Assembly (NCBI GenBank): GCA_017396555.1 | Contig: JAFQLS010000022.1 | Coordinates: 17,204 to 81,203, forward strand | From: Lachnospiraceae bacterium | GTDB taxonomy: Bacteria; Bacillota; Clostridia; Lachnospirales; Lachnospiraceae | Length of the DNA: 64,000 nucleotides | Reading direction: 5' to 3' | Shown here: in pieces, positions 1,239 to 60,229 of the stretch | How positions within the stretch are numbered: the stretch's first letter is position 1 | How the letters are laid out: the number at the start of each line of letters is the position of its first letter | Position numbers and translations under genes: made by a program | Notes under the pieces: generated by a model | The model's input: the letters and a program-made list of their open reading frames with translations, nothing else | The model's database searches: none | What the model was told of the DNA's origin: nothing

Positions 1239-2131
1239 TAATTGTTTCCTCCGCAGCCTTTTCCTTTATGACCTTTATGTGTATCACCCTCACGAAGTCT
1301 AAGCAATGCTCTTCCTTCTTCCGATTTATACATTTGCTGACGTTTCATTGCTTCATCAAAATCAACAAGATGTCCATCAAACTCCGGACCATCGACACAG
1401 GCAAACTTGATTTCTCCACCAACAGATACTCTGCATGCACCACACATACCCGTTCCATCAACCATAACCGGATTAAGACTAACAATTGTTTTAATTCCCA
1501 ATTCCTTTGTAAGTAAACATACAAACTTCATCATAATCATCGGTCCTATTGCAATACATACATCATATTTATTCCCCTGATTATTAACAAGCTCCTTTAT
1601 CTGTTCTGTAACCATACCTTTAAATCCATACGAACCATCATCAGTAGTAATATAAAGATTTCCGGCTACAGCCTTCATCTCATTTTCAAGAATAAGTAAC
1701 TCTTTATTTTTTGCTCCAACGATTACATCGCAGGAAACACCATTTTCACGAAGCCATTTAACCTGTGGATATACAGGAGCTGTGCCCACTCCACCTGCAA
1801 CAAATAAAATTTTCTTATTCTTTAATACACTAATATCTTCATTTACAAATTCAGATGCCATTCCTAATGGACCTGTAAAATCTCTAAATGAATCTCCTTC
1901 TTTCAATGCTGACATCTTTTCTGTAGATGCACCAATAACCTGAAATACAATGGTTATCGTTCCTGCTTCTCTATTATAATCACAAATTGTAAGGGGTATT
2001 CTTTCACCCACTTCATCTAATTTAGCTATAATAAATTGACCCGGCAAGCATGATTTTGCTATCCTTGGTGCTTCAACATCCATAAGATAAATATTTGAAG
2101 TTAATTCTTTTGCATTTAAAATTCTATACAT
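1238..2131 (-). CDS. nfnA: Ferredoxin-NADP reductase-type subunit, NfnA / sulfide dehydrogenase subunit family
   Basis: A 297-residue protein of the NfnA/SudB family (PyrK/FNR-like). The N-terminal half is an FAD-binding beta-barrel (PGQFIIAKLDE, RIPLTICDY), then an NAD-binding domain (FVAGGVGTAPVYPQ), and near the C-terminus the [2Fe-2S] cysteines in GMCGACRVSV and FACVDGPEFDGH. The length is usual for the family. It probably pairs with the overlapping downstream flavoprotein to move electrons among NADH, ferredoxin and NADPH in the cytoplasm. It starts at ATG 2131 after AGGTGG and lies 18 nt behind the zinc-ribbon gene, so it may be co-transcribed with it. The family call is firm; bifurcation itself is an inference. 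Confidence 0.87.
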   Translation of the reverse strand: MYRILNAKELTSNIYLMDVEAPRIAKSCLPGQFIIAKLDEVGERIPLTICDYNREAGTITIVFQVIGASTEKMSALKEGDSFRDFTGPLGMASEFVNEDISVLKNKKILFVAGGVGTAPVYPQVKWLRENGVSCDVIVGAKNKELLILENEMKAVAGNLYITTDDGSYGFKGMVTEQIKELVNNQGNKYDVCIAIGPMIMMKFVCLLTKELGIKTIVSLNPVMVDGTGMCGACRVSVGGEIKFACVDGPEFDGHLVDFDEAMKRQQMYKSEEGRALLRLREGDTHKGHKGKGCGGNN

Positions 2132-2149
2132 TATTTGCCACCTACTCTG

Positions 2150-3790
2150 TTAGTTTATTTCATAATCGCCTTCAGCAGAAACAGACACACTCACCATATC
2201 TCCCGATACTGTATCTATTCCGTATATAAACGAGTCCATAATCTTATTATAAGAGCTTTTCAATACTCCTTCGATTAAATAATATTCCTTATTTTCAATT
2301 ATTGCAATTTCTCTATAAGAAAATTCCATTAATCCATCATCTTCTGTAACGCCACTTTCATCCAAAATTGTACCATTTACAATTAATTCATCAATAAGTA
2401 CGTCATAAGCTTCATCATATGAATATTTTCTCTCTTCTTCGTATTTGTAAATATTTTCAACTACTGCACTACTCATACCTGATTCATCAACAAGGATTAC
2501 AGAGAATACATATTTACCTCTTGGCATATCTATAGGCTCTGTATATTCTTCTGATTCTGTTGTAGGCTCTACACCATATTCATCTATAGTATAATATGCC
2601 TTCATTCCCTCAGGAACCTCTACTTCAATCTTAGTTGCTTCTTTATATGTTCCACCTGAAGGAGTTACCTTTGGCGGCTCAATAGCTTCAAGCTTAAATG
2701 TAAATTCAGCTGTAACTACATCACTCATTTCTCCTTCTTCATCAACTGCAACCGCCTTTATTTCATAAGTTCCCTGCTCCTTGATTTCAATAGGTTCTTC
2801 ATATACCGTACTGTTAGTGTCCGGTTCTGAACCGTCTAAAGTATAATATACCGTACACCCTTTTTCGTACATAATACTAATATCCATGTATTCCTTATAC
2901 TCTCCCGGCTCATTTTCAAATATAGGAGCTGCAACAGACTTAATGCCTAACTCTAAACCTATTTCTGTTCCCATAAGCGATTCTTTAAAGCTTTCTAATT
3001 CTGATTCCATTTCAGCTTTTGTATACAATTTAATTAAATTCTCATAGTGCTCCTTATTATCTTTTTCAAGAGAAATTAATTCCTTAAGTATATCCACACA
3101 CTCATGTATTTCCGATTCTGACAGTGTAACAAATCCACGATTCATATAAGCATCATACAACGCCTTATTTGCATCTATAATTTCCTTGTCTGACTTAGCC
3201 ATATTAACAGCTTTTTGAAATGAGTTAACTGCCTCATCATATTTTGCTGCCGTATATAATTCTATTCCTTCATTATAGATATCTAAAAAAGTATCTTCCT
3301 TAGGGGATTTATTTCCAAATATTAAAACCAGTGCTATTACAATTACTGTTATTGCTATTACACCGGCTACAACACCTGCTATTATTTTACCTGTTTTCTT
3401 CTTTTTAACAGGCGGTTTCTTAACATTTTTTTCACGTCCTGTATTCAATGCATTAACCTGAAAGTCATTATAGCTATTATGTTTTCTTGCAATTTCAATC
3501 AATTCCAGGCTCTCATCCTTAATATCAGGAATAGTTATATCCTGCGTAGAAGTATATCTTTCATCATTTAAAATATCTTCTTCTATTTCAACTCTTCCAT
3601 CAAATACCCTTGTAGTTCCACCTATATCCGAATTACTTTCTGCTTCCATTTCATCCATTAATTCACCAATATTATTTGCAAGTTCTTCTTCTATTAAATT
3701 CAAGTCTGGTATTGAATGAATACGATTACCACATTTCAAGCAAAAGGTTTGATTTGCACCGCATTCTTCACCACATTTATTACATTTCAT
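2150..3790 (-). CDS. Zinc-ribbon membrane protein with TPR-like stretch and chitobiase-type Ig-like repeats
   Basis: About 546 residues. The N-terminus is a zinc ribbon (CNKCGEECG then CLKCGNRI), followed by an acidic linker, a basic patch (PPVKKKKTGK) and one membrane helix near residues 137-160. The outer part has a TPR-like helical stretch (EGIELYTAAKYDEAVNSFQKA) and two repeats with the YYTLDGSEPD / YYTIDEYGVEPTT pattern typical of chitobiase/hexosaminidase C-terminal Ig-like domains. I prefer ATG 3790 over GTG 3793 because GGAGG then sits 8 nt upstream. The role is unknown; the layout suggests a membrane-anchored protein with an extracellular binding region. It has its own promoter just inside the end of the preceding gene. 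Confidence 0.7.
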   Translation of the reverse strand: MKCNKCGEECGANQTFCLKCGNRIHSIPDLNLIEEELANNIGELMDEMEAESNSDIGGTTRVFDGRVEIEEDILNDERYTSTQDITIPDIKDESLELIEIARKHNSYNDFQVNALNTGREKNVKKPPVKKKKTGKIIAGVVAGVIAITVIVIALVLIFGNKSPKEDTFLDIYNEGIELYTAAKYDEAVNSFQKAVNMAKSDKEIIDANKALYDAYMNRGFVTLSESEIHECVDILKELISLEKDNKEHYENLIKLYTKAEMESELESFKESLMGTEIGLELGIKSVAAPIFENEPGEYKEYMDISIMYEKGCTVYYTLDGSEPDTNSTVYEEPIEIKEQGTYEIKAVAVDEEGEMSDVVTAEFTFKLEAIEPPKVTPSGGTYKEATKIEVEVPEGMKAYYTIDEYGVEPTTESEEYTEPIDMPRGKYVFSVILVDESGMSSAVVENIYKYEEERKYSYDEAYDVLIDELIVNGTILDESGVTEDDGLMEFSYREIAIIENKEYYLIEGVLKSSYNKIMDSFIYGIDTVSGDMVSVSVSAEGDYEIN

Positions 3791-3827
3791 CACAATTACC
3801 TCCGATAATAGTTTCCTATATATACAT

Positions 3828-3870
3828 TCACCTCATGACTTGAAGTCACGAGGTGATTTCGACAAATCAC
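3828..3870 (-). promoter_or_regulatory. Tandem hairpins in the 5' leader of the zinc-ribbon gene
   Basis: Two adjacent perfect stems lie between the promoter and the start codon. One pairs 3853-3859 with 3864-3870 (GTGATTT/AAATCAC). The other spans 3828-3856 (TCACCTC...GAGGTGA, one mismatch inside). Neither has a U-tract, so they are leader structures rather than terminators. I do not match them to a known riboswitch. Confidence 0.5.
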
Positions 3871-3875
3871 TAAAA

Positions 3876-3903
3876 ATTATACCATATTTTTAATGATTTA
3901 CAA
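3876..3903 (-). promoter_or_regulatory. Sigma-A type promoter for the zinc-ribbon gene
   Basis: On the minus strand TTGTAA (3903-3898), a 16-nt spacer, then TATAAT (3881-3876) with an extended -10 TGG. It overlaps the stop codon of the small membrane protein gene upstream. Confidence 0.65.
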
Positions 3904-4585
3904 TACTATTTATTTTTGTTAACTTTCTTGTAACACTTGCAAGCATAATTATGAATATATGTGCTGCAATAGCAATCATTGGCCCATATCCTACCATTCC
4001 CATTGCATCATATTGACTTTGAACATATTTTTCTAAGAAAATTACAATCATAATTACTTCTGATACAATAGCAATTACAGATGTAAACATAACAACCACA
4101 TAACCTGCTTTTGTTCTCCATAACATAATAAGGAAAAATTGTACTATTCCTATACCTATTGTAACAATCATACATATAATGGCTGTTATTACAAACACCT
4201 TTTCATCATATAAAAAATCACCAAAATAGTTAATCATATAAAATATATCTGTTCCTTTTATATATTCAATATATGACTGTTCATTAACAGCCGACTGTTC
4301 ATAATGCATTATAAACATATCAAAAATTAAGGTTACACTTGCTATACAGGTAAACAACATCATCATAAAAGACAAAGTAAACTTACATACACCGAAGCCT
4401 TTAACCTTTTTATTACGTTTTTCTTCTACTTTTATTTCATCTATATTTTGTTTTTTTTCTATAACTTCCGGTTCTTCTATATTGTTAGCTTCTTCTGTAA
4501 CTTCCGGTTCTTCTATATTGTTAGCTTCTTCTGTAACTTCCGGTTCTTCTATAACTTCTGCTTCATCAAAGATTTTTTCATCCAT
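3890..4585 (-). CDS. Small four-helix membrane protein with acidic 12-residue repeats
   Basis: About 231 residues, no recognised family. The N-terminal cytoplasmic part is very acidic and contains in-frame 12-residue repeats (unit EEPEVTEEANNI). It is followed by four hydrophobic segments near residues 67-91, 125-150, 160-182 and 196-220. I use ATG 4585 rather than 4600, because GGGAGG lies 7 nt before it and overlaps the upstream ATG. It starts 17 nt after the stop of the large Ig-repeat gene, so the two probably share an mRNA and perhaps the sigma-28 promoter. It might assist display of that protein, but nothing in the sequence proves this. Confidence 0.6.
   Translation of the reverse strand: MDEKIFDEAEVIEEPEVTEEANNIEEPEVTEEANNIEEPEVIEKKQNIDEIKVEEKRNKKVKGFGVCKFTLSFMMMLFTCIASVTLIFDMFIMHYEQSAVNEQSYIEYIKGTDIFYMINYFGDFLYDEKVFVITAIICMIVTIGIGIVQFFLIMLWRTKAGYVVVMFTSVIAIVSEVIMIVIFLEKYVQSQYDAMGMVGYGPMIAIAAHIFIIMLASVTRKLTKINSIVNH
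4461..4555 (-). repeat. 36-bp in-frame tandem repeat
   Basis: A 36-bp unit (positions 4484-4519 and 4520-4555, plus a partial copy before 4484) is repeated almost exactly inside the small membrane protein gene. 36 is a multiple of 3, so gain or loss of units changes the protein by 12 residues without a frameshift. Confidence 0.8.
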
Positions 4586-4602
4586 TTGTATTCCTCCCAT
4601 GT

Positions 4603-7600
4603 TTACTTCTTCATCGTAACAACTCGTACCTTACAAGTCAGTACCTTTCCATTTACTTTAGCTGAAATAATAGCCGTTCCTGCCATCTTAGCTGTAATCA
4701 TTCCCGAAGAACTTACAACGGCAACTCTTCTATTACTTGTCAACCATCTTGTTGACTGAGCATCGCCCAATACATCCAAGTCAAAATAATCATATTGCTC
4801 TAATGTAACTGTCGTTGCATTAAGTGCTATTACATTTATTGTACATGAAGCTTCAACACCTGATAGTGTAGAAACAACTATAATCTCACAACTTCCCTGA
4901 CCTTTCGCCGTAACTACACCTTTGGAATTAACCGTTGCTACCGATTTATCTGTTGAATACCATTTATACGAATCTGTCGAATTACGAGGCAACATTCTTG
5001 CTTCTATTTCTATTCGTTGTCCTCTTAGCATAGTTAGCTTCGAAGAATTAAGCTTTATAGAAGTAGCTTCAACTCTCTTCTTTACTACAACCTTAGCCAT
5101 TCCTTTAACATTACTTCCGTCTGTTGACGTTGCATATATATTACATCTACCAGCACTTACCGCAACTATCTCTCCAGTCTCATCAACTGTTGCTACCGAT
5201 GGATCCGAAGATGTCCACTTAAGATTTCTAATAGAAGCATTAGAAGGAGTAATCTTAGCTTTAAGCTGCTTTGCTTTCCCTTCGTAAATATTTACTCTTG
5301 AAGGTGTGATTGTAATCTTTTTAACCGGTCTTATTACCCTTATTCTGTAGCTTGCCATAACACCACTACCATCCTTAGCCTTTGCACGAATGTATGCAGT
5401 ACCATAACCAACTCCTTTAACAACTCCCTTCTGGGTAACAGTAAGTTTCTTCTTGTTAGTTGTAGACCATTTCACAGCTTTATTCGTAGCCGTAGATGTT
5501 TGAACATTTGCCACCAGCTTCATTTTCTTTCCATAATTAAGATAGTGACTCTTTCCTGTTAATTCAATGCTTGTAACCATTTCTTTTACAGTTATCTTAC
5601 AATGTGCAACCTGTGAGCCTTCTTCTGTTGTAACTGTAATAATTGCTGTTCCACCTTTCTTAGCTGTAACAACACCATTTTCAACTGATGCTACTGATTC
5701 ATCGCTTGAAGACCATGTTACATTTTTATTTCTGGCAGATGCAGGCTTAACTGTTGCCGTAAGAGCTATCTTTTTACCAAGCTTTATGGTTCTTTTCTTT
5801 GAATTAAGAGTAACACCCGTTACTGCCTGTTCGACAGTAACCTTACATTCTGCCACAATAGTATCTCCTGTAAACGGATCCTTACTAGTAACAAGAATTT
5901 TTGTTTCTCCTGCTTCTTTTGCATAAAATCTTGCCTGATTTTTATCAGATTTTTCGAGTTCAACTATATCCTTATCTTTAGTTTCCCATAGGAATGTCTG
6001 ATTATCAGCATTTGCCGGTTCAGTATTTACTTCTAATATGAAGTAATCACCCTTACGTGTAATATATTCAGTGGCACTTAACTTAAGTCCTGTTACATTC
6101 TGGTAAACCTTAACCGTACATTTGGCAAATATACCTGAATCATTTGACTGTGCGGTAATTACACAAGTTCCGGCCTTAACACCCGTTACATACCCCATAT
6201 CATCAACCTTAGCAATTGAACCATTCGAGGTTTCCCATGTAATTGACTTATCTGTAGCATCATCAGGATATATGTTAAGTCCATTTGCAACCTTTAGTTT
6301 TTCGCCAACCTTGATAATTATATTACTGTATTCACTATCGAATTCAACCTTTGTAACCGGCTGTCTAATTACAAATTCACATGTAGCAAACAAGTTCTTG
6401 CCTGTACTATCTACCCCCAATGTCTGAACAATAATTGTTACCGTACCGGGCTTAAGGAATGTAACCATACCTTCCTGACTTACATCTGCCACATCCGGCT
6501 TAGAAGAACTCCATATTACATCTCTATTAACATTTTCCTCTTCCGGCTCAATTGTATATGAAAGCTGATATCTTACATCCTCAAGATCAGCTTCTACTCT
6601 TTCGTCACTTAATATTATTTTTGAAATAGGTTTTGTAACTGTTACCTTACAATAAGCCTGCTTCTGTATATCAGGATGGCTTACACTTACGATTGCCTCA
6701 CCAGTTCCTACAGCCTTAATTTTACCTGTCTGGTCAACTGTTACTATACTCGGATCACTTGTTGTCCATTTAACTGTTGTATCGTATGCATCTGCCGGAT
6801 AAACAACTGCAAATAATGGATATTGCTGTCCAAGAGTTAATGCCTTTTCAGTTTCAGATATTTCGATATCTGTTGCTCTTCTTCTAACATAAACCTTACA
6901 CCATGCACTTCTTGTAATACCACTAACCTGCTGAGTTGCTTTAATCCAAGCTTCCCCCTTAGATATACCTGTAACAGTTATAGTAAAATTATCCTCCTCA
7001 TTTTCTGTTATGGTTATTATAGAACCACTTGTATCAAGAGGACCATCCTTACTCTTATGAATACTCCATTCAACCTCTGAACCACCATCAGTCGCAACAC
7101 AAGTGATGTCAAATGTTTCTCCTTCTTTTACATTATATTCAGTTGCACTAAGTGATAAAGAATCAACAACTGTAAGTTTAATATCTGCCCACTTTGTTTC
7201 TACTGTTCCAAAAATATCCTGATTCGAAATAGTAGCTCTGATTGTTGCTTCACCTTTTTTCTTAGCCGTTACAACACCTTCATTATCAACTTCCACAATA
7301 CTTGTATCTGATGAACTCCAGTTAACACTTGATGCATAGTTTTCATTTACGTTTGTCGAAAGTGTCAGTCTGTCACCTACTGCCAAATATGTATGGCTAC
7401 TTATGATTTTAAAATCAACAAAAACCGGTAATGTTCTCTTTGTAATATACTGATACCATCTATTAGTTTCATCAACTGCACTAATTGTAATTGTCGTTCT
7501 ACCTGCTGTAATACCTCTTGCAATACCATTAGTATTAACTGATACAATATCCGGATCCGCCGATTCATAGACAATATATCCACCAGAGTTTGTTTGCAAT

Positions 7601-8298
7601 TGATAATCTTCCATATATGGAATTGTAACTTCCGAAAATTCCTCCGTAAATTTTGCATTTACACAAACCTCGAACTGTTGTGTCTGCTTTCCATCTGCTG
7701 TTGTACATTTAATAACTGTAACACCCGAACCAGTATACTGAATGGTACCTATACCTGGTTGTTGCTCAACAACTGTTGCAACATTAACATTACTTGATGT
7801 CCATGTTAATGAATTGTTTGAATTAGTGTTTACCTGATATGGAGAATCACTATCCTCAAATACAATGACAGGAGCATTCTTAACCTCTAAAGTAACGGTA
7901 ATCGTTTTAGATGCTGTCGCAGTTATAAGATTGCCAAATTCATCTTCTGATTTAAGTGTGGCTGTAATAGTTGCTGTTCCTGCGCCAACTGCCTGTAAAT
8001 ATGTAGATGAAATATTACCTGTTGCACTCTGATTACTTAGCATAATTACTTTGGGGTCAGATGACTCCCATTCAATAGTAGTACCACTTACTAAATCAAC
8101 CGGAGTATTACCATCAAATGCTGTTGCATTCCATTTAACCATTGTCGGTACATCCCAATAAACATTTTCATCTAGGTTATTACCCGAAATAATAACTGTA
8201 ATTGTTGCAGCCGGTGTCCATTCAAGTGGCAAAATGATATTTGATATCATTACAAAACATAAAATCCATGCGACTATGAATTTAATCTTGTTTCTCAT
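4603..8298 (-). CDS. Large secreted protein with about 14 bacterial Ig-like (Big_2) repeats
   Basis: 1231 residues. It has a Sec-type signal or anchor (basic MRNKIKF, then a hydrophobic stretch to about residue 22). The rest is repeats of about 80-90 residues with the Big_2 signature W(S/T)SSD..V..V...G.V.A...G.A.I; I count about 14. There is no LPXTG motif, SLH domain or choline-binding repeat, and the C-terminus simply ends after the last Ig domain. The family is typical of surface or adhesin-like proteins. A close match to a sigma-28 promoter lies upstream, which suggests expression with motility genes. It is first in a transcript with the four-helix membrane protein. The ligand is unknown. 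Confidence 0.85.
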   Translation of the reverse strand: MRNKIKFIVAWILCFVMISNIILPLEWTPAATITVIISGNNLDENVYWDVPTMVKWNATAFDGNTPVDLVSGTTIEWESSDPKVIMLSNQSATGNISSTYLQAVGAGTATITATLKSEDEFGNLITATASKTITVTLEVKNAPVIVFEDSDSPYQVNTNSNNSLTWTSSNVNVATVVEQQPGIGTIQYTGSGVTVIKCTTADGKQTQQFEVCVNAKFTEEFSEVTIPYMEDYQLQTNSGGYIVYESADPDIVSVNTNGIARGITAGRTTITISAVDETNRWYQYITKRTLPVFVDFKIISSHTYLAVGDRLTLSTNVNENYASSVNWSSSDTSIVEVDNEGVVTAKKKGEATIRATISNQDIFGTVETKWADIKLTVVDSLSLSATEYNVKEGETFDITCVATDGGSEVEWSIHKSKDGPLDTSGSIITITENEEDNFTITVTGISKGEAWIKATQQVSGITRSAWCKVYVRRRATDIEISETEKALTLGQQYPLFAVVYPADAYDTTVKWTTSDPSIVTVDQTGKIKAVGTGEAIVSVSHPDIQKQAYCKVTVTKPISKIILSDERVEADLEDVRYQLSYTIEPEEENVNRDVIWSSSKPDVADVSQEGMVTFLKPGTVTIIVQTLGVDSTGKNLFATCEFVIRQPVTKVEFDSEYSNIIIKVGEKLKVANGLNIYPDDATDKSITWETSNGSIAKVDDMGYVTGVKAGTCVITAQSNDSGIFAKCTVKVYQNVTGLKLSATEYITRKGDYFILEVNTEPANADNQTFLWETKDKDIVELEKSDKNQARFYAKEAGETKILVTSKDPFTGDTIVAECKVTVEQAVTGVTLNSKKRTIKLGKKIALTATVKPASARNKNVTWSSSDESVASVENGVVTAKKGGTAIITVTTEEGSQVAHCKITVKEMVTSIELTGKSHYLNYGKKMKLVANVQTSTATNKAVKWSTTNKKKLTVTQKGVVKGVGYGTAYIRAKAKDGSGVMASYRIRVIRPVKKITITPSRVNIYEGKAKQLKAKITPSNASIRNLKWTSSDPSVATVDETGEIVAVSAGRCNIYATSTDGSNVKGMAKVVVKKRVEATSIKLNSSKLTMLRGQRIEIEARMLPRNSTDSYKWYSTDKSVATVNSKGVVTAKGQGSCEIIVVSTLSGVEASCTINVIALNATTVTLEQYDYFDLDVLGDAQSTRWLTSNRRVAVVSSSGMITAKMAGTAIISAKVNGKVLTCKVRVVTMKK

Positions 8299-8384
8299 AA
8301 TAATCCTCCATTCTTTAGTTAAAAACTAAAAATTATCTATATATTGTGTCTGTTCTCTCTTAAAAATACATTCTCTGGTAGTTT

Positions 8385-8412
8385 ATATCGGCATTTCGCC
8401 ACCCACACTTTA
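8385..8412 (-). promoter_or_regulatory. Sigma-28 (SigD/FliA)-type promoter for the Big_2 protein
   Basis: Minus strand: TAAA (8412-8409), 16 nt, GCCGATAT (8392-8385). The -10 equals the Bacillus SigD consensus, and the spacer is within the usual 14-16 nt. A possible second promoter (extended -10 TGCTAGAAT, -10 at 8422-8417) lies just upstream. The leader to ATG 8298 would be about 80 nt. Confidence 0.65.
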
Positions 8413-8452
8413 GTCTATTCTAGCATATTTTCATATATTTTTACACAAAAAA

Positions 8453-8486
8453 AACATTACAAAATGCAAAATCACTTTATAATGTT
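8453..8486. terminator. Bidirectional intrinsic terminator
   Basis: Outer stem AACATTA (8453-8459) with TAATGTT (8480-8486) plus an inner AT-rich pairing, flanked by T-runs on both strands (eight on the minus strand). It most likely ends the ABC-transporter transcript before the Big_2 gene. Confidence 0.65.
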
Positions 8487-8523
8487 TTTTATTACTCATT
8501 ATCTACATATTCAATAATATGAT

Positions 8524-8634
8524 ATGAAATTAATCACCAAAGAAGAAAAAGAAGCAAAAATAAAAGAATTAACAGCCTAACTCAATTCACTTAACAGAGG
8601 CTACGAAAATATCGCAGCCTCTGTTTCTAATTAA
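8524..8634 (+). pseudogene. Possible short gene remnant with an in-frame stop
   Basis: On the plus strand, ATG 8524 reads MKLITKEEKEAKIKELTA, then TAA at 8578, then stays open as LNSLNRGYENIAASVSN to a second TAA at 8632. The helical, charged composition is gene-like and one CAA-to-TAA change would explain the first stop. There is no ribosome-binding site, and the second half overlaps a hairpin. It could be chance. Confidence 0.2.
8593..8625 (-). terminator. Stable hairpin just after the ABC permease gene
   Basis: A perfect 10-bp stem pairs AACAGAGGCT (8593-8602) with AGCCTCTGTT (8616-8625), starting 2 nt beyond the permease stop. It lacks a clear U-tract on the minus strand, so it may protect the 3' end or be a weak terminator ahead of the stronger one at 8453. 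Confidence 0.45.
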
Positions 8635-9580
8635 TCGCTTCAAATGAACTCCTCTTTGTTTCAATGTAAAATTTAATTACTATTGATATAAGCACCAATA
8701 AAATCAACTCACACAGAACAATCGCAAAATTAAAATTGTCATATGCCAATTCCACATTGACTATTCCTTTAAAGTCGAAGAATTTATCATATAGATAATT
8801 TATGCAATTAAGTAATTCATATTTGCCCGGAATATGAAGTATATATAAATATGCAAATATTATACATACACTCATTGTAGAATTTCTAAACACTGCTGCC
8901 AACAACGCACCTAGTTCCAGAAATACAAATATTGATAATAATATAATTGATAATCTTGCAAATTCTGTTTTTAAATCTGTCTTTGATAAGGAAATGTCAA
9001 CGAGCGACATATCAATTTTATTCTTAACTAGCATAAAAAATATACGATTAGATATTATACCAAACACCACTCCTGATACAGCAATCATGAGTGCCGAAAC
9101 CAACATAGATATCTGTTTCATTTTTATATAGCTAAATTTACTATTTCTTATAGTTTTTAGTTTTTTCATTCTATATTTGTCATCCAAAGATACATATATT
9201 GCCCCAAACAAACTAAACACTATCGGAATAATTATTAAAGACATTTCTTCAAGTTGCGTTATCACATTATCCGGATGAATATAGCTAACATACTGACTAA
9301 GCATTGTTTTATAATATAAAATAGGATTTTCTATCATTCCCGACTTACCATCCGCACTCACAGTAACCTTAAATTCTCCGTTTAAATCCTCCTGCATAGC
9401 TTCTATATCACCGTTATAGAATTCTACTTTTCGATCATAGTTACCCTTCATTTCCATTACCGCTGAATAATTTATAAACTGTATTCCACATACCAAAATA
9501 CAAATAAGTGCAAACATTTTATAATATAGCTTTGAATAAAAGCCATACTTAATCTCTGATTTCAAGTAATTCTTCATCAT
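8627..9580 (-). CDS. ABC transporter membrane subunit (ABC-2-like)
   Basis: 317 residues with about six hydrophobic segments. One is near the N-terminus (residues 22-40), then a long outer loop (about residues 45-105), and then several helices to the C-terminus. This is the shape of ABC-2 type permeases for peptides, lipids or bacteriocin immunity. It overlaps the ATPase gene by about 30 nt, so the two are surely coupled. The first two codons are both ATG (9580 and 9577) behind GAGGAG, and either could start. With the small secreted protein two genes upstream, it may export or give protection against that product; this is an inference from context. Confidence 0.7.
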   Translation of the reverse strand: MMKNYLKSEIKYGFYSKLYYKMFALICILVCGIQFINYSAVMEMKGNYDRKVEFYNGDIEAMQEDLNGEFKVTVSADGKSGMIENPILYYKTMLSQYVSYIHPDNVITQLEEMSLIIIPIVFSLFGAIYVSLDDKYRMKKLKTIRNSKFSYIKMKQISMLVSALMIAVSGVVFGIISNRIFFMLVKNKIDMSLVDISLSKTDLKTEFARLSIILLSIFVFLELGALLAAVFRNSTMSVCIIFAYLYILHIPGKYELLNCINYLYDKFFDFKGIVNVELAYDNFNFAIVLCELILLVLISIVIKFYIETKRSSFEAIN

Positions 9581-10229
9581 ACAGCTCCTCTAAACTTTCT
9601 TTTTTATTTTGAAAATCTGTAATATGAGGAATTATAGTTTTGTCTTTTACAATATATATATCATCTACAATATTATTATAAAAACTAAACTGATGTCCCG
9701 TTAATATAATTGTCATATTATCAGACCATTTTTTTATCTGCTCCTTCAATTCACATACCGACTCATAATCCAAACCATTTGAGATTTCATCCATCACTAA
9801 GTATTTAGGTTGCAATAAATCGACTAATATCAGTGCTAATTTTTTTCTTTGACCATAAGAATATGTCTTAACCTTTCGTTTTAAAATATCCATTCCAAGA
9901 TATTTTAAAGCACACTCTATAATCTCACTTTTAGAAAATTCATTTTCAGATAATATATCAAGATTCTGCAAACCTGTTAAATTGGTATAGAAAGGTGCAT
10001 CATCCCAGATTACAAAGCATTCCTTTCTCACCCTATTAACATTATTTTCGTCAAACAAAATATTACCGTCATATTTTTCTAAATCAAACATACACTTAAT
10101 TAGACTTGTTTTACCCGAGCCATTTTTACCTAACAAAAATGATATTTTATTACTTTCAAACGATAAATTCACATTATCAAACAATATATTATTTTTGTAC
10201 TTTTTACTTAGACTATTAACCCTTATCAT
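9549..10229 (-). CDS. ABC transporter ATP-binding protein
   Basis: 226 residues, a single ABC ATPase domain of normal length. Visible motifs are Walker A (LLGKNGSGKTSLI, about residue 33), a divergent signature (YSYGQRKK in place of LSGGQ), Walker B with the D-loop (YLVMDEISNGLD) and the switch histidine (ILTGHQFSF). It energises the membrane subunit encoded by the overlapping downstream gene. The upstream neighbour is a small secreted protein, 84 nt away across a long hairpin. The substrate is unknown. Confidence 0.88.
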   Translation of the reverse strand: MIRVNSLSKKYKNNILFDNVNLSFESNKISFLLGKNGSGKTSLIKCMFDLEKYDGNILFDENNVNRVRKECFVIWDDAPFYTNLTGLQNLDILSENEFSKSEIIECALKYLGMDILKRKVKTYSYGQRKKLALILVDLLQPKYLVMDEISNGLDYESVCELKEQIKKWSDNMTIILTGHQFSFYNNIVDDIYIVKDKTIIPHITDFQNKKESLEELYDEELLEIRD

Positions 10230-10252
10230 TTTTTATCCTTTCCATTTAATAA

Positions 10253-10292
10253 AACATTCCTCCACAACTTTACAAAGTCACGAAGGAATGTT
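10253..10292 (-). terminator. Long attenuator-like hairpin between secreted protein and ABC genes
   Basis: Read on the minus strand, 10292-10253 folds into a nearly continuous 19-bp stem (outer arms AACATTCCT/AGGAATGTT, several GU pairs inside, 2-nt loop), followed by TTTTATT. This would let the first gene be expressed well above the transporter genes. Confidence 0.6.
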
Positions 10293-50693: not shown

Positions 50694-50723
50694 TTGCCAT
50701 ATTTACCTGTACTATGATAAAAT
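50694..50723 (+). promoter_or_regulatory. Promoter of the AP2-HNH-like gene
   Basis: TTGCCA (50694-50699), 18 nt, TAAAAT (50718-50723) with extended -10 TGA. Confidence 0.55.
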
Positions 50724-50755
50724 TTACTAAGTTCATAACTTGGAGGAACATACAA

Positions 50756-51550
50756 ATGAGCAATCTTAAAGGTGTATTTATTGCATACAAAAAAGACGGA
50801 ACCAAATATTACAGAAGTTCTCTTACATATAGAAACAAACATATAAGCCTTGGAAGCTACACTACCGAAGCTTATGCCAATACAGCATACAGAGAAGGAA
50901 GTCAGATAATATCTAATCCTGACATATACATAGACAACCTTGATTCATACATAAGTATTCTTTCGTTCGAAAAATGTGTATCACTAATCAATTTCAGAGA
51001 TAACGGAATATATTTCAAAACACCTATATATATGCATCAGAAATACTTTGATTATTATCTTAACGAGGAAATAATACTGAAATTCGACGTTGATGACCTA
51101 TTCTTCTATGCCAAGCACACAATAATGAAACGTGACGGTCATTTATTTGTAGCTGATTATGGTATGCAAATCAATATAATGTCACGATACGGCATCAAAA
51201 ATTATGCTGTTCCCGGAAAAGATTATGTATTTAAAAATGGTGATTATTATGATTTCAGATACAAGAACATAGAAATAATCAACAGATATTACGGTGTAAC
51301 ACATGAAACAAAACGAGGCAAAAAAGTATTTATATGTAAAATTCATATAAATGGTGACTTTATCGTTGGAAAATACGCTGAAGAAACCGATGCAGCTATC
51401 GCATACAACAAAGCTGTGGACGTTTTAAATGAAAATGGGGTTCATCACAATTATAACAAAAATTATATTGATAATCTCACCCCTATGGAATATGCTACTA
51501 AATACAATAAAATCAAAATATCAAGCAAAATAAGAAATTACAGAGAATAA
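50756..51550 (+). CDS. AP2-domain protein with degenerate HNH-like centre
   Basis: About 264 residues from ATG 50756, chosen because GGAGG lies 9 nt before it; the longer frame adds 14 residues. Both ends look like AP2-type DNA-binding domains: YRSSLTYRNKHISLGSYTTEAYANTAYREG and GVTHETKRGKKVFICKIHINGDFIVGKYAEETDAAIAYNKAVDVL. The middle (about residues 120-180) looks like an HNH fold without its histidines; DFRYKNIEIINRY matches the closing NR..NL..V motif. Relatives are homing endonucleases and phage-borne proteins. It is not in an intron here. It might be a domesticated DNA-binding protein. Confidence 0.6.
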   Translation: MSNLKGVFIAYKKDGTKYYRSSLTYRNKHISLGSYTTEAYANTAYREGSQIISNPDIYIDNLDSYISILSFEKCVSLINFRDNGIYFKTPIYMHQKYFDYYLNEEIILKFDVDDLFFYAKHTIMKRDGHLFVADYGMQINIMSRYGIKNYAVPGKDYVFKNGDYYDFRYKNIEIINRYYGVTHETKRGKKVFICKIHINGDFIVGKYAEETDAAIAYNKAVDVLNENGVHHNYNKNYIDNLTPMEYATKYNKIKISSKIRNYRE

Positions 51551-55502: not shown

Positions 55503-56024
55503 TTAACCTCCTATCCAGCTCATAATCTCTAATTTCTTCTGCATTTTCGCTAATGCTCTACTTAGCTTTGACCTTACAGTATTTGAATTAAGCCCCATAC
55601 TTTCTGCTATCTCATGACTCTTATAGCCTGCAAATACTGACAATGACACAACCTGTTTTTCTTCTTCTGTCAAGACCGAAAATGCTACCCTAACATCTTC
55701 ATATTCATCAATGTCCTTTTCCTCAAATGCAATATTATCTGTAAGCTCCACATCTCTTTGTATGTACTTCTCAAGCTTCTTCTTGCACTTTATTGTCAAT
55801 ATTCTAAACATCCAGTTCTTAAAGGATTCTTCCTGTCGGAGTTTTCTAATCGACTTATATGCATCTAGTACTGTTTCTGCCACTGCATCCTCCGCATCCA
55901 TAGCATTATCCAGATAGTAATATGCATATTTATACATATCCTTGTAAATCAAAATGTAAAGTTCTGAAAATGCATCATCATCACCAGCCTTTGCTTTCTT
56001 TACTAATTCTGTTGATATTTCCAC
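55503..56024 (-). CDS. ECF-type RNA polymerase sigma factor
   Basis: About 173 residues from GTG 56024, chosen because GGGAGG sits 6 nt upstream; ATG 56048 would add eight residues and puts the SD inside the gene. Region 2 is AKAGDDDAFSELYILIYKDMYKYAYYYLDNAMDAEDAVAETVLDAYKSI, and region 4 is LTEEEKQVVSLSVFAGYKSHEIAESMGLNSNTVRSKLSRALAKMQ. It directs transcription of an envelope-linked regulon and is coupled to the beta-propeller gene. A weak ECF-like box (TGCAAC, 56088-56083) lies upstream and could mean autoregulation. Confidence 0.9.
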   Translation of the reverse strand: MEISTELVKKAKAGDDDAFSELYILIYKDMYKYAYYYLDNAMDAEDAVAETVLDAYKSIRKLRQEESFKNWMFRILTIKCKKKLEKYIQRDVELTDNIAFEEKDIDEYEDVRVAFSVLTEEEKQVVSLSVFAGYKSHEIAESMGLNSNTVRSKLSRALAKMQKKLEIMSWIGG

Positions 56025-56130
56025 TTTATCGCCTCCCTTGAAATGCATTTCTATATATTAAGTGTTTTTATTTTCCATTTTTGTTGCATAAATTTTATTT
56101 TTTTTGAGTATAACATAAAATCCCAAAAAA

Positions 56131-56158
56131 ATCTGCCGGACATTAATGTCCGACAGAT
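56131..56158 (-). terminator. Terminator of the invertible-switch surface protein gene
   Basis: ATCTGcCGGACATT/AATGTCCGaCAGAT (56131-56158; one mismatch), then TTTTTTTGGG on the minus strand. Confidence 0.9.
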
Positions 56159-56168
56159 AAATATAAAT

Positions 56169-57500
56169 TTATTTCACCTTATATGTAACAGTATTAGAAT
56201 AGTTACCATATATATCTACAACCTTAACCTTTACTTTTGCTCCCTTTGTAAGCTTCTTACTTAATCTAATACTGTAATTCTTAGATGTCAACTTCTTCTT
56301 AACAGTCTTTCCTTTATAATTAACATATACTGTTACGCCCTTCTTTGCTGTACCTTTTACAAGCTTAGTATTCCTCTTAGCTGTCTTTATCTTTGGAGAC
56401 GCAAGCTTTCTATTCTTAACTATAAGTTTTGTTGTTGTTGATTTGTTACCATTTTCATCTTTAGCATAAACAGATATCTTATTTCCAACCTTTAATACTG
56501 GTGTCTTAATTTTAAATACTCCATACTTATCAGTAACAGCCTTATAAGTTTTTTTCCCGATTTTCGCATATACTGTTGAACCTACTTCTGCATTACCTTT
56601 GATGTATTTAGTACCTGACTTATATGATTTTGTTTTAGGCGAAGCTGGTGCATAAACATCTTTTACATCAATAACCGTCTTTATCTGACCAGTTGTTCCT
56701 TCTGTTCTATCAATAGATATATAATATGTACCTGCTTCTAATGTAAATTTATCATCTAAATTTTTAAGTCCGTAAGCAGAATCTAATTTTTCTAAATCTT
56801 TACCTTCTCCTGCATATTTATATACAGCTGCTCCAAAAATCCCTGAACTATCCCAAAGGCTTGAAACATCAACACTTACATCACTCTTTGATTTAACATC
56901 AAATCTAAACCACTGATACTCAGCAACATCTGACATTACTCCATACGCAGTACTTTTTCCATATTTTCCATTATTAATATTAATTGCCTCCGATGCCGAA
57001 TAACCTTTAGTCTTTCCTGTTCTTTCCAAATCTTGTTTAAATACACTTAATAACATCTGACTATCTTCATCTGCCAAAAAACTGCCTTCTCTCACAGCTT
57101 CATATTTTATATAATATGTCCCCGGTTCTAAAAGACATTCTGAATATCTTATTTCGTCCGGATTACTTAACACCTGTTCAGTAAACACACCTGTTTGGCT
57201 ATAATATAACACTTCATGCGAGCGCATAGAAATATCAGCATATGCCTTAAATACAACATATGCAGGTTTATCCAAAGAAAACTTATAATAAGAAGTAGCT
57301 CTACCATTTGTATTATAATCTTCCATAATATCAACATCAATCATCCAAGGTGTTTGCTGAGTAGTATCCTCATAATTCGTCACATCAATAGGTACTATCT
57401 CTGTTGCCTTTGATACATCATCTGCATATGACATAATAGCAAAACTTAATGTCATAATCATCATTGTTACTAATCCAAAAAATATTTTCCTTAATTTCAA
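56169..57500 (-). CDS. Secreted Ig-like surface protein downstream of an invertible promoter
   Basis: 443 residues. A Sec signal peptide (MKLRKIFFGLVTMMIMTLSFAIMSYADD, cleavage near residue 26) is followed by two pre-peptidase-like beta domains (about residues 40-150 and 165-280; FSLDKPAYVVFKAY, YYIKYEAV, YYISIDRT). The C-terminal 160 residues hold two bacterial Ig-like domains of the Big_6 kind (KYIKGNAEVGSTVYAKIGKK, KLVKGTAKKGVTVYVNYKGK). The tail is very basic, which may hold it to the wall; there is no LPXTG. AGGAGG precedes the ATG. The 83-nt leader up to the left inverted repeat has no convincing promoter, so expression should depend on inversion or on readthrough from the recombinase gene. 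Confidence 0.78.
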   Translation of the reverse strand: MKLRKIFFGLVTMMIMTLSFAIMSYADDVSKATEIVPIDVTNYEDTTQQTPWMIDVDIMEDYNTNGRATSYYKFSLDKPAYVVFKAYADISMRSHEVLYYSQTGVFTEQVLSNPDEIRYSECLLEPGTYYIKYEAVREGSFLADEDSQMLLSVFKQDLERTGKTKGYSASEAININNGKYGKSTAYGVMSDVAEYQWFRFDVKSKSDVSVDVSSLWDSSGIFGAAVYKYAGEGKDLEKLDSAYGLKNLDDKFTLEAGTYYISIDRTEGTTGQIKTVIDVKDVYAPASPKTKSYKSGTKYIKGNAEVGSTVYAKIGKKTYKAVTDKYGVFKIKTPVLKVGNKISVYAKDENGNKSTTTKLIVKNRKLASPKIKTAKRNTKLVKGTAKKGVTVYVNYKGKTVKKKLTSKNYSIRLSKKLTKGAKVKVKVVDIYGNYSNTVTYKVK

Positions 57501-57583
57501 TTTTTTGTTCCTCCTCTTAAATATTATTCTCGTATTCTTTTTGTCACACCTTATCTACTTATGATACAGTAATAAAAACATAG

Positions 57584-57615
57584 TTTTGCGTAGAATTAAA
57601 CATTCTTAACTATAT
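57584..57615 (+). repeat. Left 32-bp inverted repeat of the invertible segment
   Basis: Perfect reverse complement of 58661-58692. Core layout AGAAT-TAAAC-ATTCT at 57592-57606 looks like two recombinase arms around a 5-nt spacer. It lies between the surface protein leader and the end of the recombinase gene. Confidence 0.92.
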
Positions 57616-57625
57616 TACATTGGTT

Positions 57626-58570
57626 TTATTCGTATAAAGTAAGTTTTTCTATCTGAATAATTTTTTGTTCTATAGAACTGTGAACATATACGTTAAGAGT
57701 AAAATTAACATTAGAATGTCCTAATATTTCACTTAATGTTTTCACATCCACACCAGCCTCTACACATCTAGTTGCAAACGTATGCCTTAATCCATGAAAA
57801 TTAATTGGTAAAATTTCACATTTCTTTAATATTTTGTGATATCTGTATTCCAAGGTTCTCGGACTAATAAATGTATTTGTAGAAGATGCAACATATGCTG
57901 AAGTTGATTGCAAATACATCATCTTTAGCATTTGTAACAGTTTGGAATTAATAGGAACTACCCTTATTGAATTTGAGGTTTTCGGCGTATCCAATATTAA
58001 TTTTGTAACTGCATCTTCTTGATTACATAGCACTCTGGCAACCGTATGATTTATATTTATATACATCTTCTTCATATTTATATCATCCCAACGTAATGCA
58101 CATATTTCTCCAATTCTTAAGCCTGCATATAGTGCTAAAGCTATTGCTACCCCTGTATGCGAAATATTCCTACTTATATATTTAATTAATTTTGCTTGAG
58201 ATTCTATATCCAGAACATTAATCGGTCTCTTTGGTATTGAAGGACACAATACACAATTTAATTTCAAAATTTCACAATAATTCATATCCGTAGCATATTC
58301 CATTATTGAATTAAAAATAATAATTATTGTTTTTATGTATGACGGACTTAGCGAAGTGTTGTTTTTAAGATTTCCAACCATTATTTTTTCATTTACAAAA
58401 TCAACGAATTGTTTTTCGTTTATTTCTCTAACATCAACGTTATTAAAATATGGTAATAAATGATTATTAACTATATTAGTATATTTTAAAAGTGTTGAGG
58501 CTTTCTGTTTGACTGATTGAATCAGTAACCATTCATCTGCAACCTCCTTAAATGTTCTCTTTTGTTGCAT
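57626..58570 (-). CDS. Tyrosine recombinase (site-specific invertase) inside its own invertible segment
   Basis: 314 residues, intact. An N-terminal SAM-like core-binding domain (residues 1-100; FKEVADEWLLIQS, STLLKYTNIVNNHLLPYF) is followed by the catalytic domain with R (YAGLRIGEICALRW), the HxxR motif in NFHGLRHTFATRCVEAG, H in LGHSNVNFTLNVYVH, and the nucleophilic tyrosine in VYVH. GGAGG lies 9 nt before ATG. Perfect 32-bp inverted repeats enclose it, so it is very likely the enzyme that flips this segment. There are no other phage or conjugative genes. The call as recombinase is firm; inversion is inferred. Confidence 0.92.
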   Translation of the reverse strand: MQQKRTFKEVADEWLLIQSVKQKASTLLKYTNIVNNHLLPYFNNVDVREINEKQFVDFVNEKIMVGNLKNNTSLSPSYIKTIIIIFNSIMEYATDMNYCEILKLNCVLCPSIPKRPINVLDIESQAKLIKYISRNISHTGVAIALALYAGLRIGEICALRWDDINMKKMYININHTVARVLCNQEDAVTKLILDTPKTSNSIRVVPINSKLLQMLKMMYLQSTSAYVASSTNTFISPRTLEYRYHKILKKCEILPINFHGLRHTFATRCVEAGVDVKTLSEILGHSNVNFTLNVYVHSSIEQKIIQIEKLTLYE

Positions 58571-58609
58571 TTATCTATTCCTCCTTGTAAAACATTTTTA
58601 ATAAATCAC

Positions 58610-58638
58610 TTGAATTAAATAAAGTGTTATGTTAGAAT
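58610..58638 (+). promoter_or_regulatory. Outward promoter inside the invertible segment
   Basis: TTGAAT (58610-58615), 17 nt, TAGAAT (58633-58638), extended -10 TGT. It points right through the right repeat into a terminator. After inversion it would point at the secreted Ig-like protein gene with a leader of about 130 nt. The recombinase itself has only a weak candidate promoter in this region. Confidence 0.72.
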
Positions 58639-58660
58639 AAAATCCGTATTTTTGTTGAAT

Positions 58661-58692
58661 ATATAGTTAAGAATGTTTAATTCTACGCAAAA
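58661..58692 (-). repeat. Right 32-bp inverted repeat of the invertible segment
   Basis: Perfect reverse complement of 57584-57615. The distance between the inner ends is 1045 bp. Outside it, the T-tract of the adjacent terminator extends the A-run to eight. Confidence 0.92.
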
Positions 58693-58696
58693 AAAA

Positions 58697-58723
58697 CCTT
58701 GAGATTTCACATTATTCTCAAGG
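58697..58723. terminator. Bidirectional terminator at the right edge of the switch
   Basis: CCTTGAGA (58697-58704) pairs with TCTCAAGG (58716-58723). A T-run of eight on the minus strand overlaps the right repeat, and ATTTTTC follows on the plus strand. It stops the outward promoter in this orientation and also insulates the switch from the ilv transcript. Confidence 0.82.
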
Positions 58724-58887
58724 ATTTTTCTATTTATAAAACTATTTACATTTAATTAATATAGAACAAAGAGTCCGCTTGTAGACTCTTATGCCTGCGG
58801 CGAGTCGCATTGTGACATCTTCCGCTCCAACGAAGTGCGCATCCCACTGGAAGCTTTTGATTCATATGAATTTCCTATGAATCAAAA
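58724..58887. other. GC-rich structured intergenic element, nature unknown
   Basis: About 160 nt without a credible gene. Two hairpins stand out: AAGAGTC/GACTCTT at 58769-58790 and CTTCC...GGAAG at 58819-58853. The stretch 58790-58855 is about 60% GC, in sharp contrast to the surroundings. It could be a small RNA or a dispersed repeat; I cannot decide from one copy. A short open frame (starting MPAASRIV) has no ribosome-binding site. Confidence 0.4.
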
Positions 58888-58913
58888 ACCCCTTGGGAAA
58901 ATTCCCAAGGGGT
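58888..58913 (-). terminator. Terminator of the ilvN-ilvC-orf73 transcript
   Basis: Perfect 12-bp stem ACCCCTTGGGAA/TTCCCAAGGGGT with a 2-nt loop, followed by TTTTTGATTC on the minus strand. Confidence 0.9.
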
Positions 58914-58917
58914 CAAA

Positions 58918-59139
58918 CTATCTTCGAATATTCTCGAAGGTCTTCTTATACTTATTAACACCTTCTATAAGCTTATTATAGTCCTTCTCAGAAATCTTTT
59001 CCTCTCTTCTAAGATCCATAATACAGGCTTCATATTCCTTCCAGCTCTTATATGCTGCTTCCTTATAATTATTAGCTAAATTTAGTTTAAAAGCATTCTC
59101 TTTGTCTTCAAGAAGCTTCTTTGTCTTTCCAAAAATCAT
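58918..59139 (-). CDS. 73-residue helical protein of unknown function behind ilvC
   Basis: A short, highly charged and helical protein (MIFGKTKKLLEDKENAFKL, ... EKDYNKLIEGVNKYKKTFENIRR) with no signal peptide, cysteines or recognised family. It starts 25 nt after ilvC and ends 4 nt before a strong terminator, so it is the last gene of the ilv transcript. Codon use looks like that of the neighbours, so it is probably real. It could form a small cytoplasmic helical hairpin. Confidence 0.6.
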   Translation of the reverse strand: MIFGKTKKLLEDKENAFKLNLANNYKEAAYKSWKEYEACIMDLRREEKISEKDYNKLIEGVNKYKKTFENIRR

Positions 59140-59164
59140 TTAGCGTACCCCCTAAACATCTCAA

Positions 59165-60229
<1,065 letters not shown>

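Follow-up and report, generated by a model that had tools for sequence, protein, structure and literature searches.

The window, a 64,000-nucleotide stretch of a Lachnospiraceae bacterium contig and the whole of the DNA analysed here, holds a gene for a secreted protein next to a short segment that is bounded by inverted repeats and encloses a recombinase gene, and the question raised by this locus is whether the segment works as a switch for its neighbor. The sequence and its comparison with relatives suggest that the segment at 57584-58692 is very probably a self-contained invertible promoter (i.e., an inverton enclosing its own recombinase), which is OFF as assembled and lies beside a secreted PPC/Ig-like gene. 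The left (57584..57615) and right (58661..58692) inverted repeats are 32 nt each, are 100% complementary, and have 1045 nt between them. A chance origin of these repeats was rejected, since only approximately 3e-9 such perfect pairs are expected per 64-kb window of the same base composition. In the 2.34-Mb genome of the organism (the assembly is 85% complete), they are the sole copies at up to three mismatches, and the exact repeat has no match in viral contigs. A relaxed search of the same genome for the site gave five matches beyond the two repeats, versus three for a reversed-pattern control, and nothing beyond two weak repeats with a score of 15 was found around those five sites and around the four further recombinase loci of this organism (1.7-3.4 kb each).

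The enclosed gene (57626..58570, reverse strand) encodes a tyrosine recombinase of 314 amino acids, as identified by Pfam, residue alignment, and structure match. Its Pfam domains are Phage_integrase and a SAM-like N-terminal domain, and membership in the serine invertases (Hin/Gin) was rejected on the basis of the former. The open reading frame is intact, and Arg152, Lys197, His259, Arg262, His285, and Tyr295, which we take to be the catalytic R-K-H-R-H-Y set of tyrosine recombinases, are all present; each of the six is conserved in at least 80 of the 81 recombinases aligned. The repeat search, the Pfam domains, and the intact residues thus confirm the initial annotation, which had described perfect 32-bp inverted repeats enclosing an intact tyrosine recombinase. 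In the phylogenetic tree, the protein groups with the recombinases of two relatives, L045 and L046 (support of 100/99), and all three lie between repeats. A fragment of a further recombinase, which is 45% identical over 86 residues and has an internal stop, is found on contig 37 of the same genome (L007, 1501-1773).

Among solved structures, the protein is most similar to "Int protein" (6emy and others), of which 6emy is presumably the Tn1549 integrase (Int). This match would suit a minimal integrating element, consisting of an integrase and its ends, that was inserted beside a gene and is not a regulatory switch; we regard this explanation as very improbable. An N-terminal arm-binding domain is a feature of the Tn916/Tn1549-type integrases of conjugative elements, and this domain is absent from the window recombinase, which starts at the SAM-like domain. 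The repeats at the ends of the segment are, moreover, inverted and not direct. At least 60 additional N-terminal residues are carried by 47 of 80 relatives, and the lack of this extension in the window protein could fit a locked relic, i.e., an element that inverted once and no longer does so. Such a relic is improbable, because the reading frame and the six expected catalytic residues are intact, the repeats are identical over 32 bp, and relatives such as L054, L097, L098, and L111, which have no extension either, are also located between repeats.

The presumed target of the switch (56169..57500, reverse strand) encodes a protein of 443 amino acids with a TTG start, a PPC domain and Big_6 Ig-like repeats assigned by Pfam, and an N terminus that resembles a signal peptide, as judged by eye. 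The TTG codon is located 83 nt beyond the left repeat, and a ribosome-binding site, AGGAGG, lies at 57510..57515 on the same strand; both had been claimed previously and hold, the former by calculation and the latter by eye. At the 3' side of the gene, the consensus scan identified a terminator hairpin with a 12-bp stem followed by a T run (56131..56158, reverse strand). Relatives of the target were not found at 1e-25 in the other 298 genomes of the family, and the organism itself has one paralogue, which is 44% identical. Upstream of the paralogue is a near-consensus promoter, TTGACA-18-TATAAT (by eye); its contig has no recombinase match, and around the gene there are four imperfect repeat pairs (78-88%) and no perfect inverted repeat of at least 16 nt. 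Elsewhere in the window, an open reading frame of 278 amino acids without a Pfam match (50714-51550) lies on the strand opposite the adjoining leuD-like gene.

Inside the segment, an outward promoter, TTGAAT-17-TAGAAT with an extended -10 (TG), is located at 58610..58638 on the forward strand and is directed away from the target as assembled. Its motif, spacing, and TG are as initially described, but by itself the promoter is not above chance, as the consensus scan of 56000-59200 gave 23 promoter-like sites versus 19.5 ± 4.8 in shuffles. A distance of 54 nt separates the end of its -10 element from the outer edge of the repeat. Just past the right repeat, a terminator with an 8-bp stem, a T tail, and a folding energy of -11.0 kcal/mol, which folds on both strands, was found where it had been claimed (58697..58723); the consensus scan missed it because its loop is 11 nt, whereas the scan is limited to 8 nt.

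In the assembled sequence, no hairpin terminator was found between the end of the recombinase gene and the target, so this orientation may not be silent, and basal expression of the target is possible. An inward promoter for the recombinase was looked for by promoter scoring and was not found. Three 9-of-12 promoter matches from the consensus scan point at the target within 200 nt upstream. Two of these are inside the segment, at 57684-57657 and at 57638-57609 (the -10 of the latter being in the left repeat), and the third, at 57547-57520, is outside the segment and would place the start site in the ribosome-binding site. The earlier statement that the target lacks a convincing promoter is therefore fair but not absolute. 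The two sites inside the segment and the missing terminator could also indicate a reversed or graded polarity, in which the assembled orientation expresses the target via the recombinase transcript or the weak promoter at 57638-57609, and the outward promoter serves another purpose. We consider this reading unlikely.

Recombinase matches at an E value of 1e-40 or below number 82 and are distributed over 62 of the 299 genomes of the family, including that of the window. Repeats were sought around 81 of these recombinases, namely, that of the window and 80 of its 81 family relatives (G194 was left out). The search of relatives that had been proposed in the initial annotation gave 48 of 81 recombinases between inverted repeats (score of at least 16), versus 1 of 134 shifted controls; the scores for repeats and promoters, the gene calls, and the thresholds are home-made, the cut-off of 16 for the repeats was chosen after a first look, and not every one of the 48 loci is independent, as several come from one genome. 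The 33 of 80 relatives without detectable flanking repeats at this threshold, some of which are at contig ends, would accord with the integrating element described above. On the recombinase tree, flanking by repeats is weakly clustered (21 changes versus a shuffled mean of 25.7, with 17 of 500 shuffles as low).

The same architecture is found in the genus of G114, where 22 of 27 tested loci lie between repeats (three of the 27 being G114 loci already counted in the family), and in a class-wide sample, where 30 of 291 genomes have a recombinase match. In that sample, 43 matches besides that of the window were obtained, of which 27 were tested, 3 were already in the family test, and 13 had no locus; 21 of the 27, and 19 of the 25 outside the window's family, are between repeats, a count that was made with no shifted control, that has two positives exactly at the threshold, and that includes two loci, L170 and L174, whose very long repeats may be of another kind. 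These repeats are approximately 340 and 166 bp long, respectively, and perhaps belong to another inversion system. One follow-up search left partial matches and matches without a locus out of the repeat test. Within the genera of G156 and G098, no second genome with a match was found. Further afield, the GTDB 220 scan gave three distant loci with 25-26% identity, the viral contigs gave two loci at 25% identity, and 412 plasmid records match the recombinase, all at less than 60% identity and at 36.8% or less among the 20 matches listed. The architecture, whose rarity had been implied, is thus common in the family and class of the window.

The promoters of the 48 repeat-flanked loci were scored in the stretch from the upstream repeat to the recombinase start, as sigma-A-like sites that exceed shuffles at p ≤ 0.1. 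Of the 48 loci, 39 have such a site in the outward direction and 4 in the inward direction; in an earlier run, for which the stretch differed slightly, the counts were 37 and 5, respectively. For the recombinases without repeats, the figure is 9 of 31 in each direction (two of the 33 were too short to score), and in the DNA outside the repeats it is 5 and 7 of 48 on the upstream side and 9 and 6 of 48 on the downstream side. Among the 36 stronger promoters, including that of the window, the commonest spacing between the -10 element and the outer repeat edge is the 54 nt seen in the window (6 of 36; range, 29-172 nt). The outward promoter is a conserved element of these loci and the inward promoter is not, which argues against a reversed polarity; such a conserved promoter would also be unexpected at the end of an integrase element.

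The core sites of tyrosine recombinases are expected to consist of half-sites flanking a short centre. By comparison with relatives, the left repeat of the window can be divided into a putative outer half-site, TTGCGTAGAA (57586-57595), a putative inner half-site, ATTCTTAAC (57602-57610), and a 6-nt centre (57596-57601), which is the probable crossover region; the corresponding centre of the right repeat would be at 58675-58680. The outer half-site is common to the window, L045, L046, L128, and L169, in the form TTTCGTAGAA in one arm of L046 and one arm of L128. The recombinase of L169, which comes from another family of the class, is 45% identical to that of the window, and this locus shares both half-sites but not the centre. 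In this comparison, the centres vary between elements, while both arms within each element agree. The half-sites are palindromic at 7 or 8 of 8 positions in 54 of 71 repeat sites (three loci being counted twice), compared with 31 of 710 random pieces. The window repeat scores 6 of 8, which is within the background (174 of 710 random pieces), and the script centred it elsewhere, so the half-sites given here rest on the comparison with relatives and not on the palindrome.

Recombinase identity and repeat similarity are correlated across the loci (r = 0.48, with 0 of 2000 permutations as high), whereas the flank control gave r = -0.03; after seven near-copies were dropped (41 of 48 kept), the values were 0.36, again with 0 of 2000 permutations as high, and -0.04, respectively. 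L198 (1139-3540) belongs to a family of the class other than that of the window; its half-sites are nearly the same as those of the window, and its recombinase is 45% identical to the window protein. The L198 recombinase is upstream of a TadZ-like gene, near trp-like genes (by eye), and the gene beside it resembles the same TadZ as the target of L046 (by eye); the locus may represent a transfer of the cassette.

Both orientations of the segment occur at matching loci in two clean pairs of relatives, each pair from one genus. The segment of L143 (G114) is 89% identical to that of L131 (G318) and inverted, with breakpoints at the repeats, between flanks that match in the same orientation on both sides (90% over 1145 bp; 84-85% over 587 and 207 bp). 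L128 (G305) and L046 (G269) share one flank, which extends for 1427 bp to the repeat at 93% identity, and do not match on the other side; their segments (76%) run in opposite directions, and the breakpoints fall no more than approximately 15 nt from the repeats. L046 belongs to the recombinase clade of the window (100/99), its target is TadZ-like, and the genes that follow this target resemble a Tad operon (by eye). In a third pair, L139 (G320) and L138 (G331), a reversed segment lies beside a 78% flank, but this pair is uncertain and may consist of paralogues, because NusG-like switches recur within these genomes and the second flank matches only approximately 24 bp past the repeat. L158 and L148, as well as L077 and L120, share a flank on opposite sides, and alignment of their segments is partial or absent.

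The element of the window is known in one orientation only, which a locked relic would explain; a flipped copy was not found, with one genome in its genus and the target absent from 298 family genomes at 1e-25. The clean pairs, in which the segment occupies matching loci in two species but in opposite orientations, are not what insertion of an integrating element would give. The claim that the segment inverts at its repeats by means of the enclosed recombinase and carries an outward promoter is therefore supported by comparative data, namely, the frequency of flanking repeats, the conserved outward promoter, the co-variation of enzyme and site, and the inverted pairs.

For an invertible promoter, the direction of the outward promoter makes OFF the likely state of the assembled orientation of the window, and inversion would likely turn the target ON. 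The recombinase would bind the half-sites in both 32-bp repeats and exchange strands at the short centre that separates the half-sites, thereby inverting the 1.1-kb segment along with the recombinase gene itself. In the assembled orientation, the outward promoter would fire into the terminator past the right repeat, leaving the secreted gene OFF or at a basal level; once the segment had inverted, transcription from this promoter would cross the left repeat and enter the target, with a leader of approximately 130 nt that includes the ribosome-binding site. The window copy would flip, with the promoter direction setting expression, and its biological role would be the on/off display of a secreted protein within the population.

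The orientation of the 48 loci was called from the first gene of at least 100 amino acids on each side, using the home-made gene calls. Twenty-one loci, including the window, are OFF-like and 4 are ON-like; in 17, the genes lead away on both sides, 4 reach contig ends, and 2 have none. That 21 of 25 single-target loci are assembled in the orientation of the window is a point in favor of the reversed polarity, and the bias may stem from majority-form assembly, from selection for OFF, or from this polarity. Conversely, 16 of 21 OFF-like loci have a terminator-like hairpin in the path of the promoter, compared with 120 of 384 random pieces, and 7 of these 21 loci have one after the recombinase, which speaks against the reversed polarity; this comparison is confounded, since that is where convergent genes end, and some matches (e.g., L079 and L105) are in or adjoin the palindromic repeat.

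The Pfam scan covered 30 of the 61 listed targets of the relatives, of which two have no Pfam match and two match only below the cut-off. The scanned targets include TadZ, a sugar transferase, Wzz, NusG-like proteins, PP2C, a response regulator, a signal peptidase, and FHA, in addition to Big_2, LRR_5, a glycosyltransferase, an epimerase, four helicases, and three TnpB-like proteins. In L057, L116, and L118, a TnpB-like gene (Cas12f1-like TNB domain) is the first gene beyond the downstream repeat. In L045, the closest relative, an FHA gene (Pfam) and PP2C-like and kinase-like genes (by eye) lie on one side of the switch (2023-5901), and genes for membrane or secreted proteins lie on the other side (7766-10262), divergent from the FHA set; this switch is possibly a two-way toggle.

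Hin is a serine recombinase that uses hix sites and an enhancer, and it differs in type from the tyrosine recombinase of the window element. In the account given in the consulted part of PMC5903667, the Hin gene of Salmonella lies, as in the window, inside its own invertible promoter segment. The same source describes a fimbrial invertible segment of Providencia stuartii, from another phylum, that is 844 bp long, encloses a recombinase open reading frame, and has imperfect 14-bp repeats; it resembles the window element in its short repeats, its length below 1.5 kb, its enclosed recombinase, and its adjoining surface-structure genes, and the section of PMC5903667 concerned does not state its recombinase type. 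In gut Clostridia, inverton group 139 (33 invertons, 32 of them from Clostridia) is linked to tyrosine invertase group 35 (PMC11892184, in part), which makes it similar to the window element in phylogeny and in the type of its linked recombinase; group 35 is possibly the same family as the window recombinase, a likeness drawn from its description, in which a recombinase inside the segment is not stated. RecV of Clostridioides difficile is likewise a tyrosine recombinase that inverts short regulatory segments, but it is one enzyme acting on several segments of 154-230 bp, which are too short for a recombinase gene (PMC5903667 and PMC7241687, as far as consulted). Given the Hin, P. stuartii, and Clostridia precedents, the window element is a further case of a known type of switch. 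Recombinase-enclosing invertons of its family were not found in the titles and abstract openings of the openly licensed literature, from which we do not claim their absence from print, and the consulted part of PMC8493755, a possible precedent, mentions no enclosed recombinase.

The commonness of these cassettes, the variety of their targets, and their OFF bias (21 to 4) are more notable than the window copy itself. There is about an even chance that the repeat, outward promoter, recombinase, and repeat form a phase-switch cassette that is portable, has spread across the class, and lies upstream of many unrelated genes, including those for Tad pili, NusG-like regulators together with glycan genes, FHA and PP2C proteins, and secreted adhesins; in about a third of the loci (17 of 48), in which the genes lead away on both sides, it would be a two-way toggle and not an on/off switch. 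The bias toward OFF in assemblies is a testable question. Each recombinase is apparently tied to its own repeats, and the family thus offers many natural enzyme-site pairs for studying the site choice of tyrosine recombinases. As the switch family is recognizable from sequence, and the enzyme, sites, and promoter travel together, candidate phase-variable genes could be listed from single assemblies.
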